64,000 nt of DNA, taken from assembly GCF_023657595.1 (NCBI RefSeq), contig NZ_CP098323.1, positions 3,806,001 to 3,870,000 of the forward strand, read 5' to 3'. Shown here piece by piece: positions 6,320 through 10,744 of the stretch. Source of the stretch: Cytobacillus firmus. GTDB taxonomy: Bacteria > Bacillota > Bacilli > Bacillales > Cytobacillaceae. The notes below the pieces were generated by a model. It made no database searches. It saw nothing but the letters and a program-made list of their open reading frames with translations, and had not been told where the DNA came from. A program made the translations under genes and the position numbers. Within the stretch, counting starts at the first letter, position 1; every line of letters starts with the position of its first letter.

Positions 6320-6868
6320 TCAATTCGCCTGCTTTTCACCGGCAGAATAGCTTTTAAAGGTTTCCAGAACTTTCACATATCGATCTTTTGAAACAATAGG
6401 TATTCCTTTTTTTAATTCTTCACATTTTGCACTTTCTAATTTTCCTAAGTCGATTTGAAAGAATGACTGAATAATATTCGTATTTTGCGGCTTTCCATTG
6501 AAGATGGTAAGTGTTCCGTCCTCCGTTACACCGAAATACCCATTTGCTTTTAATAACGGTGAAATATCATCCACTTTCCTGCGGAATACCATATAATCTA
6601 TATCCATATCAACAAGCTGCCATTGATCATATTTAGCCCAGAAATCTTCAAGAGTCCATATGGTTTCCTCTATTGTTTCCTGGCTCACTTCCCCATCCAG
6701 ATACTCCCTTTCCAAAATGACCTCCATCTTAAGCGGACCTTCAATTCGTTCCTCTGCTGCCTTAGCATATATAGATGTGCTGTTAGATAGAAAATTGAAT
6801 GCATCCGGATGGAAGAAGAGATAAAAGGAAGCAGCTCCTGCTATTAGCAAGCACCATATGGTTCTCAT
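6320..6868 (-). CDS. bofC: BofC, forespore inhibitor of SpoIVB-triggered pro-sigmaK processing
   Basis: Secreted forespore protein that restrains the SpoIVB signalling protease, so that pro-sigmaK is processed in the mother cell at the right time. The 182 residues (170 in B. subtilis) begin with a hydrophobic signal segment (residues 4-20) and contain the BofC pattern VILEREYLDGEVSQE and the C-terminal region beginning GYFGVTEDGTLTIFNG. ATG start with a CGAGGTGA ribosome site. In Bacillus it is a forespore (sigmaG) gene; I could not recognise a convincing sigmaG promoter here. It works with the SpoIVFA/SpoIVFB pair encoded about 17 kb away. Confidence 0.92.
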   Translation of the reverse strand: MRTIWCLLIAGAASFYLFFHPDAFNFLSNSTSIYAKAAEERIEGPLKMEVILEREYLDGEVSQETIEETIWTLEDFWAKYDQWQLVDMDIDYMVFRRKVDDISPLLKANGYFGVTEDGTLTIFNGKPQNTNIIQSFFQIDLGKLESAKCEELKKGIPIVSKDRYVKVLETFKSYSAGEKQAN

Positions 6869-6988: not shown

Positions 6989-7020
6989 GAAAGGGGCAAA
7001 GCATAGCTGCTTTCCCCCTT
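6989..7020 (-). terminator. Hairpin downstream of coxA
   Basis: Arms AAGGGGCAAAGCA and TGCTTTCCCCCTT pair with one bulge-like mismatch just after the coxA stop. Only a short T run follows on the reverse strand, so this is a probable rather than textbook terminator. Confidence 0.5.
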
Positions 7021-7029
7021 GCTAATTCG

Positions 7030-7773
7030 TTATTTTTCCCTGCGGAATAAGTTTTTCAAATCCCAATCAATTTGCTCTCTTGGGCCTCCATCACGAAGGT
7101 TGTTATCAATGTTTCTTAAACGGCTGAATGTTCCTTCGTCTGTTACCACCTTTGCAGATCTTCCCCGCAAATATGGCTCAACAGCTTCATGAATCGCTTC
7201 TTTCGTTTGTTCTTCCTTATCGTAATCAGTCAGATCTACAGCAATCAAAACATTGCTGCCATACGTAACAGATCTGACGTCTTCAACATTCGGAACAGAT
7301 GCTGCAACGTCGCCGATTTTTTCAGCAAGCTCACCTTCATAAGCCTGATAATAGGAATTTTTAGCTTGTCGCGTATTATCATCGAGATGCCCGTGATAAT
7401 TTGCATCACTATGGCTAAAACGATTATCTTTCATGAAAAAGCTGCGATCTCTGTCCGCAATAGGAATAGTAGGGTTTCCGGTATTTTCGTTCCGGACTCT
7501 TCTGGCATTATTGTTTACTTGGTTATGGCGATTGTTTTCCCCCTCGCCTCCAAGCGTATGATAGATCATTTCTGTCAGAGGCCCATCATTATCGGTACCA
7601 TCTTCCACCCGGGCATTGCCGCCGCGGTTTCCGTGATTCTCATTCGAGTAATATCCCATGGGCTGACCAATTTCATTGTTCCGTTCAACACCTGCATCTT
7701 CGTTCGTTCCGCATCCTGTCATTCCCATTGATAAAATAGCAGCCATCGGCACTGCAAGCAGTTTCTTGTGCAA
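7030..7773 (-). CDS. coxA: CoxA-like sporulation lipoprotein (YhcN/YlaJ family)
   Basis: A 247-residue lipoprotein with signal peptide MHKKLLAVPMAAILSMGMTGC; the lipobox cysteine is C21. The middle is Asn/Arg-rich and low complexity, and the C-terminal half carries the YhcN/YlaJ-type domain (YEGELAEKIGDVAASVPNVE, then VLIAVDLTDYDKEEQ). Position downstream of safA matches B. subtilis coxA (yrbB), a cortex-associated spore protein; that protein is shorter (about 199 residues). The start is TTG at 7771-7773, the only codon that keeps the Lys-Lys signal-peptide head. Its ribosome site GAGGGGGG is the 3' arm of a terminator-like hairpin (7777-7850), so expression may be controlled at that structure. 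The family assignment is firm, the orthology slightly less so. Confidence 0.82.
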   Translation of the reverse strand: MHKKLLAVPMAAILSMGMTGCGTNEDAGVERNNEIGQPMGYYSNENHGNRGGNARVEDGTDNDGPLTEMIYHTLGGEGENNRHNQVNNNARRVRNENTGNPTIPIADRDRSFFMKDNRFSHSDANYHGHLDDNTRQAKNSYYQAYEGELAEKIGDVAASVPNVEDVRSVTYGSNVLIAVDLTDYDKEEQTKEAIHEAVEPYLRGRSAKVVTDEGTFSRLRNIDNNLRDGGPREQIDWDLKNLFRREK

Positions 7774-7776
7774 GCG

Positions 7777-7850
7777 AAAAACCCCCCTCGCTAATATTAC
7801 AAGCCCTGAGCATTTCTGCTCTTATTTAGCTTGTGAGCGAAGAGGGGCTT
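7777..7850 (-). terminator. Terminator-like stem-loop that contains the coxA ribosome site
   Basis: On the reverse strand a long imperfect stem forms from CCCCTC/GAGGGG, GCT/AGC and ACAAGC/GCTTGT pairs with an inner GAGC/GCTC hairpin, followed by five T. The 3' arm GAGGGGGG ends 8 bases before the coxA TTG start. Confidence 0.7.
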
Positions 7851-7890
7851 TCATTCTGTCCATTTACGTCCAATTTTTTAATGGGCATTA

Positions 7891-8880
7891 TTAGTTTTTG
7901 TCATTGGCAGCATATTTAAGAGCTTTAATAAAACGCTGTCTTTCAGCAAACTGGCCTACAGTTAAGTCCAGAACAGGACGAATTTTCACAGAATCAAGAT
8001 ATGATCTATCCCTTATTACACGATTCCATTCCCTGAATATATCAGTAGGAAATGCCAAGGCATGAAGAAAACCCTTTTCTTCAAGATTGGATTTTAAGGT
8101 GGGGTATTTTCTCAAATCTTCAAAGGACCAATTCATATAAGGAAGGATGCGATTTGCATACTGCAGATAATCAGAATGAGGAGACCCTATTGCTACCAGG
8201 TCAAAATCGAGCAAATATAAAGATTGATCTTTTGCTCTGAGAAAATTATGATGTGCTACATCACCGTGCAGAATTACCTGCTTCCCTGACTGAAATAGCC
8301 AGGCTTCGTCTTCCATGCCTTTTAAGGACCAATCTGCCCAGGCTAATAGCTCATTAATAATTTCTTTTTGGACAAAATACCTTACTACAGGGAGATTATT
8401 AAGGAAAAGGGTTGCTCTTTCTCTCCACTTATCCGCCTGCCTATATGCCGGTACAACCGTTTGATAGCGGCTGACGAGCTTCTCTGTAGTATCGTGGAAT
8501 TTCTTCAGCAGCTCCAGCCCTTCTAAACGATCTGTCTTCAGGTAATAAGTAAAAACTTCTTTCGAAGGCGGTAAATACTCCAAGCAGCCGTAATAAGTCC
8601 TGTCAAAAAACAAAGGCGGTTCCTTGGCAACTTCGTAAAAAATATATGTTTTTGAAAATCCTTCCTTCATTAATGAAGAGGTGAATGCTTCCTGTAGCTT
8701 TAGACGGTGATAGGATGAAAACCCTTTAAGTATAAAGGATCTTTCCTGTGTCCTCAGTAAATAAACCTTCTTTCTGATTGGCTTTAATTCTTCAATTTTA
8801 AATGGCAGCTGATCCTGCAAATAGGAGAGGAGACGATTTTGAACTAAATCGTCTCCTCCATTATTAACCGTCGTATTCAC
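7891..8880 (-). CDS. CotS/YutH-type spore-coat kinase-like protein (APH fold)
   Basis: A 329-residue protein of the aminoglycoside-phosphotransferase-like fold used by Bacillus spore-coat proteins of the CotS group. The catalytic loop ILHGDVAHHNFL (H205 G206 D207, N212) and the metal-binding LLDFDL (D225-F-D227) are intact, so it may be an active kinase; its substrate is unknown. It lies between safA and coxA, which are adjacent in B. subtilis, and its GTG start at 8878-8880 lies before the safA stop (17-base overlap), implying coupled expression in the mother cell. The ribosome site for this GTG is weak; a good GGAGGAG follows safA but has no standard start codon behind it and is held in a 13-bp hairpin. 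Confidence 0.82.
   Translation of the reverse strand: MNTTVNNGGDDLVQNRLLSYLQDQLPFKIEELKPIRKKVYLLRTQERSFILKGFSSYHRLKLQEAFTSSLMKEGFSKTYIFYEVAKEPPLFFDRTYYGCLEYLPPSKEVFTYYLKTDRLEGLELLKKFHDTTEKLVSRYQTVVPAYRQADKWRERATLFLNNLPVVRYFVQKEIINELLAWADWSLKGMEDEAWLFQSGKQVILHGDVAHHNFLRAKDQSLYLLDFDLVAIGSPHSDYLQYANRILPYMNWSFEDLRKYPTLKSNLEEKGFLHALAFPTDIFREWNRVIRDRSYLDSVKIRPVLDLTVGQFAERQRFIKALKYAANDKN
8827..8858 (-). repeat. 13-bp perfect hairpin at the safA/kinase junction
   Basis: GAGGAGACGATTT at 8827-8839 and its exact complement at 8846-8858 with a 6-base loop. It begins right after the safA stop codon, inside the first codons of the kinase-like gene. No T run follows, so it is not a plain terminator; it could slow ribosomes or protect the safA message. 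Confidence 0.75.
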
Positions 8881-10744
8881 TGCTTTCGTCTATGTTTCTT
8901 GGCATTCCGAAAGCCGCTCCGTCCATTGGGCCAAAACCCTGACCGAAACCAGGTCCCGGGCCATAGCCGAATCCCGGACCATACCCCTGCCCTGGACCAA
9001 ATCCTGGTCCAGGTCCGAAGCCTCCAGGAGCAAATTGCGGTCCTCCACAGCCGCAATCATTGGAAGCTCCCATCACCGAGCCAGGCATCAATGGCTTTTG
9101 AGACATGCCTGGGGATTCTTCCATTCCCTGCACCTGTGGCATCTGATGCGGCATTTGCATTCCCATGTCTTCTGCCCCCATCACACCCGGTGGCATTTGG
9201 TGCGGCATCTGCGGCATCATTGCTCCCTGCACCTGCGGCATTTGGTGCGGCATCTGCGGCATCATTGCTCCCTGCACCTGCGGCATTTGGTGCGGCATCT
9301 GCGGCATCATTGCTCCCTGTACCTGCGGCATCTGGTGCGGCATCTGCGGCATCATCGCTCCCTGTACCTGCGGCATTTGGTGAGGCATCTGCGGCATCAT
9401 TGCTCCCTGCACCTGTGGCATCTGGTGCGGCATCTGCGGCATCATCGCTCCCTGTACCTGCGGCATTTGATGCGGCATCTGCTGTCCCATATCTTCTGCG
9501 CCCATCACACCTGATGGCATTTGAGCCATTGGCATAAACGGCGAAGATTCATCATAATCCGGACTTTCCACTCCGGCCATCATACCCATATGAGGCATTT
9601 GATGCTCTGGCATCATCGCTCCCTGTACCTGTGGCATTTGATGCGGCATTTGCGGCATCATTGCTCCCTGTACCTGTGGCATCTGGTGCGGCATCTGCGG
9701 CATCATTGCTCCCTGTACCTGTGGCATTTGGTGCGGCATCTGCGGCATCATCGCTCCCTGTACCTGTGGCATCTGATGCGGCATCTGCGGCATCATCGCT
9801 CCCTGCACCTGTGGCATCTGGTGCGGCATCTGCGGCATCATCGCTCCCTGTACCTGTGGCATCTGATGCGGCATCTGCGGCATCATCGCTCCCTGCACCT
9901 GTGGCATCTGGTGCGGCATCTGCGGCATCATCGCTCCCTGCACTTGAGGGAATGGCATTTGCGGGTAACATGGATTATAAGGAAACATCGGCTGATATTG
10001 ACCTCCTTGATGTGTATAAAGAGATGATTCGCTTTCCGGCGATTCAGGGCTTTCTTGATTTGAAGACGGCTTTACCTGCGGAAGGATATTAACTGGTTTA
10101 GGCGGAAGCTGAGGCTGCGGCTTAGATTCTGAAATTGGCAATGGCTTTTGCTGTGGTTTTGTTTCTGCAGGCTTCACTGGTTTTTCCTTTGCTTTAACTT
10201 CTTTCACAGGCAGAGGTTTCTGCTGCTGCGGCTTAACCTCTTTTGCCGGCAGCGGCTTTTGCTGCGGTGCCGGCTGCTGAATATTCATCATGTAATAATT
10301 ATTTATATCAATTTCCGGCATAATAGGTGTTGGCATTTTGGGCTTATAAGGTTTTTTTGGAACTTCCTTCGGGGCCTCTGCTTTTGGTGCAGTCTTAGGC
10401 ACTTCTTTCGGAATTTCAACCTTCGGTGCCGTTACTTTTGGCATTTCCTTTTTTGGTGCTTCAGCTTTCGGCATGGTAATAGGTTTCTCTTTGGCAAAAG
10501 GCTGTTCTGCTTTTGGCATTTCCTTTTTGGCACCCAAATTTATTTTTGCTTCCGGTTTTCCTCCAATAGGAGCTTCTTTTTTTATAGAGCCTCCACTTGC
10601 GGGAACTTTTATTTTCATACCGGGCATAATCATATCAGGGTTGCTGAGCTGTGTATTCATCTTTTTCAGCTCTTCAAAATTCACGCCGTACTTTTTGGCA
10701 ATCTTCCAAAGAGTATCCCCTTTCTGTACGATATGGATTTTCAC
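8864..10744 (-). CDS. safA: SafA, LysM inner-coat morphogenetic protein with long repeat region
   Basis: Spore morphogenetic protein that binds cortex peptidoglycan through an N-terminal LysM domain (residues 2-48, IVQKGDTLWKIAKKYGV) and recruits inner-coat proteins, in partnership with SpoVID. It is 626 residues, against about 387 in B. subtilis. Residues about 50-220 are Lys/Pro/Ala-rich. Then come two blocks of a 15-residue repeat (QMPHQMPQVQGAMMP), seven copies and six copies, separated by an acidic linker (SPDYDESSPF); the C-terminus is Gly-Pro-Phe-rich (GPGFGPGQGYGPG). GTG start at 10742-10744 with AGGAGGG upstream. Transcribed ahead of the kinase-like gene and coxA; a CATACACTA element at 10941 may be its sigmaE/sigmaK -10. 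Confidence 0.93.
   Translation of the reverse strand: MKIHIVQKGDTLWKIAKKYGVNFEELKKMNTQLSNPDMIMPGMKIKVPASGGSIKKEAPIGGKPEAKINLGAKKEMPKAEQPFAKEKPITMPKAEAPKKEMPKVTAPKVEIPKEVPKTAPKAEAPKEVPKKPYKPKMPTPIMPEIDINNYYMMNIQQPAPQQKPLPAKEVKPQQQKPLPVKEVKAKEKPVKPAETKPQQKPLPISESKPQPQLPPKPVNILPQVKPSSNQESPESPESESSLYTHQGGQYQPMFPYNPCYPQMPFPQVQGAMMPQMPHQMPQVQGAMMPQMPHQMPQVQGAMMPQMPHQMPQVQGAMMPQMPHQMPQVQGAMMPQMPHQMPQVQGAMMPQMPHQMPQVQGAMMPQMPHQMPQVQGAMMPEHQMPHMGMMAGVESPDYDESSPFMPMAQMPSGVMGAEDMGQQMPHQMPQVQGAMMPQMPHQMPQVQGAMMPQMPHQMPQVQGAMMPQMPHQMPQVQGAMMPQMPHQMPQVQGAMMPQMPHQMPQVQGAMMPQMPHQMPPGVMGAEDMGMQMPHQMPQVQGMEESPGMSQKPLMPGSVMGASNDCGCGGPQFAPGGFGPGPGFGPGQGYGPGFGYGPGPGFGQGFGPMDGAAFGMPRNIDESSEYDG
9215..9484. repeat. 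Six tandem 45-bp repeats in safA (3' block)
   Basis: Six consecutive 45-bp units begin at 9215, 9260, 9305, 9350, 9395 and 9440. They differ mainly at synonymous positions (for example ATT/ATC, TGC/TGT). Each encodes 15 residues. Confidence 0.95.
9611..9925. repeat. Seven tandem 45-bp repeats in safA (5' block)
   Basis: Seven 45-bp units start at 9611 and recur every 45 bases, followed by a degenerate eighth at 9926. Same unit as the 9215-9484 block. Because 45 is a multiple of three, the opposite strand also stays open, which explains spurious reading frames there. Confidence 0.95.

Follow-up and report, generated by a model that had tools for sequence, protein, structure and literature searches.

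The coxA upstream region of Cytobacillus firmus: a predicted sigma-G-type promoter with a spacer complementary to the coxA ribosome site

In phage T4, hairpins on early RNA block the translation of late genes. Translation there takes place only from RNA begun at the gene's own later promoter, and in this the T4 hairpins resemble what is proposed below for coxA, although they serve phage timing rather than cell-type control and no link between a 5′ arm and a promoter spacer is claimed for them. A second known system is the sigG (spoIIIG) gene of Bacillus subtilis, located behind spoIIG, where, according to PMC5942855, a large hairpin over the ribosome site is predicted to keep RNA that reads in from the upstream operon from being translated and cannot form in RNA from the sigG promoter itself. 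In coxA as in sigG, a strong hairpin has the ribosome site in its 3′ arm and a co-directional gene lies upstream. It is unlike sigG in being a spore lipoprotein gene, in having a run of T right after the stem and in carrying a conserved apical hairpin; the −35/−10 spacing at coxA is 18 as counted here, whereas PMC5942855 gives 14 for sigG, with different element boundaries. A G+C-rich stem with a T-run behind it, placed between co-directional genes, is what the coxA structure shares with intrinsic (rho-independent) terminators, but the coxA stem holds the ribosome site of the next gene and, in its 5′ arm, a predicted promoter spacer, and it encloses 43 bases. Taken as sequence, the locus is well described as a sigG-type design with a terminator-like T-run, a design that is known but has been little generalised. 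In the open-access literature the hairpin of sigG was found, and none was described at coxA, yunB, yqfC or ypjB among the matches listed; since subscription papers fall mostly outside that literature, this is weak evidence of novelty.

The window, as the whole 64,000-nucleotide stretch of C. firmus DNA that was analysed is called here, carries the genes safA, kinase, coxA and bofC in that order on its minus strand, and all coordinates below that are given without a locus name refer to this strand. The safA-like spore coat gene (8864..10744; TIGR02899 over its cut-off) overlaps a CotS/YsxE-like kinase gene (7891..8880; NCBIfam matches under the curated cut-offs), which is the upstream neighbour of coxA and a possible source of read-through. 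The end of the kinase gene lies 117 bases from coxA and both genes are co-directional, so that read-through is conceivable. coxA itself (7030..7773) encodes a YhcN/YlaJ-family spore lipoprotein (PF09580, E 1.8e-32) and begins with a TTG codon (7773-7771); the next gene is bofC (6320-6868). Among 161 homologous loci, which include duplicates, TTG was chosen as the start codon in 128, and the nearest named relatives of coxA are 93-96% identical and mostly from C. firmus. Apart from this, QMPHQMPQVQGAMMP-type repeats, nearly identical to one another, form a long array in safA at 9130-9990.

A sequence-only reading of this DNA had proposed that the coxA ribosome site is the 3′ arm of a terminator-like stem-loop of 70 bases. 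Direct reading and folding confirmed the structure, which runs from 7852 to 7777, ends in GAGGGGGG and five T, and spans 76 bases, near the size first claimed. The RNA folding that had been suggested as a check gave −35.9 kcal/mol with a z of −5.0, and none of 200 dinucleotide shuffles was equally stable. In the folded outer stem, the 5′ arm GAAAGCCCC-T-CTTCGCT (7836..7852) is joined to the 3′ arm AGCGAGGGGGG plus TTTTT (7777..7792), which holds both the Shine-Dalgarno sequence GAGGGGGG (7782..7789), 8 bases ahead of the TTG as had been stated, and the five T (7777..7781) that follow the stem as a terminator-like tail. The bases enclosed by the outer stem include inner stems, and folding places an apical hairpin, GAGCA-GAAA-TGCTC (7808..7821), where the coxA transcript is predicted to begin (~7820).

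This structure stands out in its own genome. Among 363 predicted genes in 464 kb (the window and 20 further stretches), the ribosome-site region of coxA showed the strongest pairing with upstream sequence, −23.1 against −19.8 for the runner-up. Strong arms together with a ribosome site paired over long range were found at nine of the 363 genes, coxA included, and coxA alone had a T-rich tail in addition. As for intrinsic terminators, the G+C-rich stem directly 5′ of a T-run is present at coxA, and the short loop of 3-8 bases is not; a generic terminator scan, which takes loops of 3-8 bases only, did not have the coxA stem-loop in its output.

The stem-loop is straddled by a sigma-G-type site, GAATGA...CAAGCTA (7856-7827), with the −35 just 5′ of the outer stem and the −10 after the 5′ arm. 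The predicted −35 element, GAATGA, lies at 7851..7856 and the predicted −10 element, CAAGCTA, at 7827..7833, directly 3′ of the arm, as judged from the sigma-G consensus and a matrix. Of the 17 bases in the 5′ arm, 16 fall in the 18-base spacer between them (7834..7851, counted from GAATG); this is the sequence that complements the ribosome site, and in folding the ribosome site was paired 1.0 to the spacer. CAAGCTA agrees with the sigma-G −10 consensus at only five of seven positions. Genes for SASPs are the textbook sigma-G set, and so that the prediction would not hang on the consensus alone, the matrix was built from them: 36 loci of the same order were collected, one weak match (L073) was excluded and two (L070 and L072) had no start, which left 33, of which 25 entered the matrix (GCATGA, mostly 17-18 bases, CACTCTA). 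With this matrix the window site scored 12.9, a value reached by 0 of 50 shuffles. The predicted transcript would start near 7820, some 47 bases ahead of the TTG, and the 5′ arm would then lie outside it if the prediction is right. A different candidate, a promoter on the 3′ side in the AATATT bulge (−10 AATATTA), was rejected. The genus-level alignment shows it without variation, but it is lost in the more distant regions inspected, whereas the −35/−10 pair around the 5′ arm is kept.

Conservation was assessed across the order. A coxA profile gave matches in 230 of 397 genomes (E<=1e-20), from which 30 returned loci and a further 80, hand-picked for spread among the matches listed, were used; an earlier search among relatives had yielded a match in 58 of 61 at E<=0.001, paralogs included. 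A start was obtained for 161 of 162 coxA loci (L188 has no recognised lipobox, and the start chosen for L195 is doubtful), and 94 of the 161 upstream regions, with mutual identity below 80%, were retained; as these are still related by descent, p-values computed from them overstate independence. Class-level homologs supplied 12 extra loci, 8 outside the order and 4 inside it, of which 10 had an upstream region; some look similar, and all were kept out of the counts.

A site exceeding the 95% shuffle null of the SASP matrix was found in 49 of the 94 regions, and the other 45 fell below it. When the best site was taken regardless of score, its −10 lay at −65 to −46 in 69 regions and at −30 to −26 in 10, and in 8 of these 10 a shorter hairpin pairs the ribosome site with the spacer. 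An ACTRACA motif was also observed in 26 of the 94 regions (1.9% in shuffles), starting 7-8 bases before the −35 in 21 of the 26; the window has the variant TGGACAG at 7856-7862, just before its −35. The motif may be an activator site or an extended −35.

Folding was unusually stable (z < −2) in 63 of the 94 regions, and in 63 of 94 the ribosome site was more than 0.5 paired with the predicted spacer when 140 bases of context were folded. The same pairing was found in 69 of 940 shuffled upstream sequences, in 5 of 33 SASP genes and in 27 of 29 sigG genes, the positive control, for which the pattern used found no promoter pair in one of 30 loci. At coxA the pairing reaches well past the ribosome site itself. 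Poor conservation of the pairing had been named in advance as evidence that would count against the earlier interpretation, and it did not occur: the pairing is kept in many lineages, though in 31 of the 94 regions the ribosome site is not paired with the predicted spacer. The earlier interpretation was partly right; what it lacked, as these comparisons support well, is that the predicted promoter spacer doubles as the arm that pairs with the ribosome site.

Within the order the arm sequences vary and yet remain complementary, as in CCCCATCC/GGATGGGG at L148 and ACTCCTGG/CCAGGAGT at L181. In the genus alignment A2, made up of 20 Cytobacillus-type sequences (those with one G fewer have the U-tract shifted by one column), covariation by column matched that of shuffles (282/500) because the 3′ arm is nearly invariant, and RNAalifold on 16 wider sequences (A3) recovered the apical hairpin and nothing else; all five pairs of this hairpin are conserved in every row of A2. 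With covariation uninformative, swaps of native and foreign arms and shuffles were used instead. At most 4 of 93 foreign 5′ arms paired equally well in 31 of 94 regions, with a median over all regions of 18 of 93 where 46.5 would be expected. In a long-arm test against shuffles, at most 5% were as good as the native 5′ arm in 46 of 94 regions and more than 20% in 33, some of the latter being of the short-hairpin type that this test misses. The best folds of L037 and L043 had no pairing of the site to far-upstream sequence. Strong arms combined with a paired site were found in 45 of 94 coxA regions and 26 of 30 sigG regions, and in none of 18 YhcN/YlaJ-family paralogs, a set of 20 loci from which two without a start or lipobox had been removed.

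At least four T in the eight bases after the ribosome site were counted in 59 of 94 coxA regions, in 60 of the 363 genes of the scanned genome and in none of 30 sigG loci. A co-directional upstream gene lies within 140 bases in 73 of the 94 coxA regions. Both the T-run and the close neighbour would fit a plain intrinsic terminator of the upstream gene, with coxA borrowing the 3′ arm as its ribosome site and blocking arising as a by-product. This explanation is nevertheless considered unlikely. The outer loop is far longer than that of usual terminators and the structure was absent from the terminator scan output, shuffles put the 5′ arm in the promoter spacer far less often than is observed, sigG has the arms-around-promoter layout without a T-run, and at ypjB, described below, the layout has arms that extend almost to the start codon.

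The identity of the upstream gene bears on what the structure may be for. By sequence match, the 94 regions divide into 56 with the kinase as this gene, 26 with an NAD-synthase-like gene (one of these assignments was confirmed by Pfam), 5 with a SafA-like gene and 7 left unassigned. The NAD-synthase-like gene stands in place of the safA-kinase unit in, for example, L056, L059, L065, L133, L134, L137 and L155. Pairing of site and spacer, taken from the folding of the long and own RNA, was found in 33 of 56 regions behind the kinase, 24 of 26 behind the NAD-synthase-like gene, 2 of 5 behind the SafA-like gene and 3 of the remaining 7. Since the pairing is retained, even more often, behind the NAD-synthase-like gene, it looks like a protection from any upstream transcription and not from that of one neighbour. 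A strong hairpin was present in 39 of the 73 regions with an upstream gene within 140 bases and in 6 of the 21 with the gene farther away, a weak tie (Fisher p 0.051).

It is considered likely that the stem-loop is a lock against read-through built into a sigma-G promoter of coxA itself, so that CoxA would be made from its own promoter only, in the forespore. Polymerase coming from the upstream kinase/safA unit would transcribe both arms, and the hairpin in the resulting RNA would conceal the ribosome site and, with the T-run, would probably also end part of the transcripts. Sigma-G polymerase in the forespore would bind the promoter that has its −35 just 5′ of the stem, the 5′ arm as its spacer and the −10 next. 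The own RNA of coxA would begin past the 5′ arm, could not form the outer stem and would therefore be translatable. With read-through RNA locked and own RNA readable, CoxA would come from its own promoter only, in the forespore, whatever gene is located upstream. SafA is a mother-cell coat protein. Forespore expression of B. subtilis CoxA is stated in PMC13059800 and PMC11841064, and taken together with the mother-cell location of SafA, this would mean that the lock excludes CoxA from the mother cell.

Modelling of the two RNAs is consistent with such a lock. The own RNA was taken to start 6 bases past the −10. In the 85 of 94 regions for which values were computed, the share of the ribosome site left unpaired had a median of 0.07 in the long RNA and 0.53 in the own RNA, and the site opened by more than 0.5 in 35 of the 85. 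At the window coxA the modelled value rose from 0.00 to 0.29, the site staying mostly paired in the own RNA because weak local pairs persist; the folding of the window's own coxA transcript did not clearly exceed that of shuffles (z +1.3 at a length of 81 bases, −0.6 at 65). The sequence-only reading had held that read-through from the safA-kinase unit would be both terminated and translationally blocked, and in silico the site is indeed fully paired and the stem does end in a T-run, with termination and blocking as predictions from the model. Its suggestion of a separate, later promoter for coxA agrees with the separate promoter predicted here, which straddles the stem-loop and is not positioned further downstream. 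A transcript from inside the stem-loop with a free ribosome site, which had been named as a refuting case, matches the predicted own transcript and would complete the idea of blocking rather than refute it.

A factor that opens the structure had been offered as the other way to express coxA, and it is not needed under the proposed lock. The related possibility of a regulated switch in a long leader of coxA's own, whether a riboswitch, a thermosensor or a hairpin opened by a protein, would account for the conserved apical hairpin GAGCA..TGCTC and for a ribosome site that is partly paired in the own transcript. It is regarded as improbable, given that Rfam returned 0 matches at E<=1 in 7000-9000, that the predicted own transcript is without the 5′ arm, and that the arm sequences differ among lineages with their complementarity kept, unlike a ligand-binding core.

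A layout of the same kind was sought at other genes in an extended scan of 1.264 Mb, about a quarter of one genome, with 989 genes that have a ribosome site, the window included. The scan gave 22 hits, the strongest three being yunB, coxA and yqfC, with cwlD among the others. ypjB had been found in the smaller scan of 363 genes and was dropped by the intergenic filter of the extended one because a predicted open reading frame on the opposite strand overlaps its start. In yunB (L363 near 10380, minus strand), yqfC (L278 near 10048, minus) and ypjB (L277 near 1011, minus), the ribosome site is in the 3′ arm and the arms enclose a sigma-E-type −10, CATACATA or close to it. Coding for coxA or for families with sporulation names was noted for 4 of the 22 hits (21 looked up) against 0 of 20 random genes (30 drawn), and with a Fisher p of 0.11 this excess is not significant by itself, so that the enrichment is suggestive only. 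Two further observations came from these scans. At cwlD (L327 near 4247, plus strand) the ribosome-site region pairs strongly with sequence upstream of it. Of the 989 genes, the one that pairs most strongly with its upstream sequence when no filters are applied (−26.1) is at L363 near 12330 (minus), and it narrowly missed the long-range cut (0.82 where the cut is 0.85).

For the three sigma-E-type genes, loci were taken from genomes with a match (39 for yunB, 41 for yqfC and 29 for ypjB). The pairing beat shuffles, with at most 5 of 100 equally good, in 23 of 30 yunB, 27 of 30 yqfC and 25 of 29 ypjB loci, many of which are close relatives; among loci from other families the counts were 8 of 9, 4 of 5 and 9 of 10, respectively, and six of the seven yunB failures fall in the genus of the window itself. 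Where a −10 was recognised, the ribosome site pairs 5′ of it in 24 of 24 yunB, 28 of 30 yqfC and 22 of 24 ypjB loci (of 30, 30 and 29). In L398 and L404 the sequence upstream of yqfC is replaced, exactly up to the −10, by one shared foreign-looking stretch, possibly an inserted element, and the 5′ arm is destroyed.

Arms that flank a −10 could also be read as a DNA operator, an inverted repeat bound by a regulator, with the RNA pairing incidental, and the ypjB repeat CTTGTCC/GGACAAG is almost invariant, as such a site might be. At coxA, yqfC and yunB, by contrast, the arms vary among lineages yet remain complementary, and the ribosome site sits in one of them, which makes the operator the least probable of the explanations weighed here.

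From the lock proposed for coxA, a wider rule can be put forward, namely that Bacillales sporulation genes share a design in which the complement of a gene's ribosome site is written into the spacer of its cell-type-specific promoter, so that only RNA from the promoter of the right sigma factor would be translatable. The balance of the evidence tilts slightly towards this rule, which rests on a quarter of one genome. If it is true, its first set would be coxA, of the sigma-G type, sigG, and the sigma-E-type genes yunB, yqfC and ypjB; each mRNA would in effect be checked for its origin, and leak-proof control of the compartment would be an RNA-level property encoded by the promoter. Sporulation requires each protein to appear in the proper cell and at the proper moment, yet spore genes like coxA have co-directional neighbours upstream that are expressed elsewhere. 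A hairpin that joins a spacer arm to the ribosome site would shield a gene from any transcription arriving from upstream, with no extra terminator needed, and coxA, yunB, yqfC and ypjB suggest that this may be a shared solution of which sigG is the one described example found. The layout also offers a simple signature that can be searched for in sequence and, for annotation, read-through RNA-seq coverage over such genes would not imply protein.
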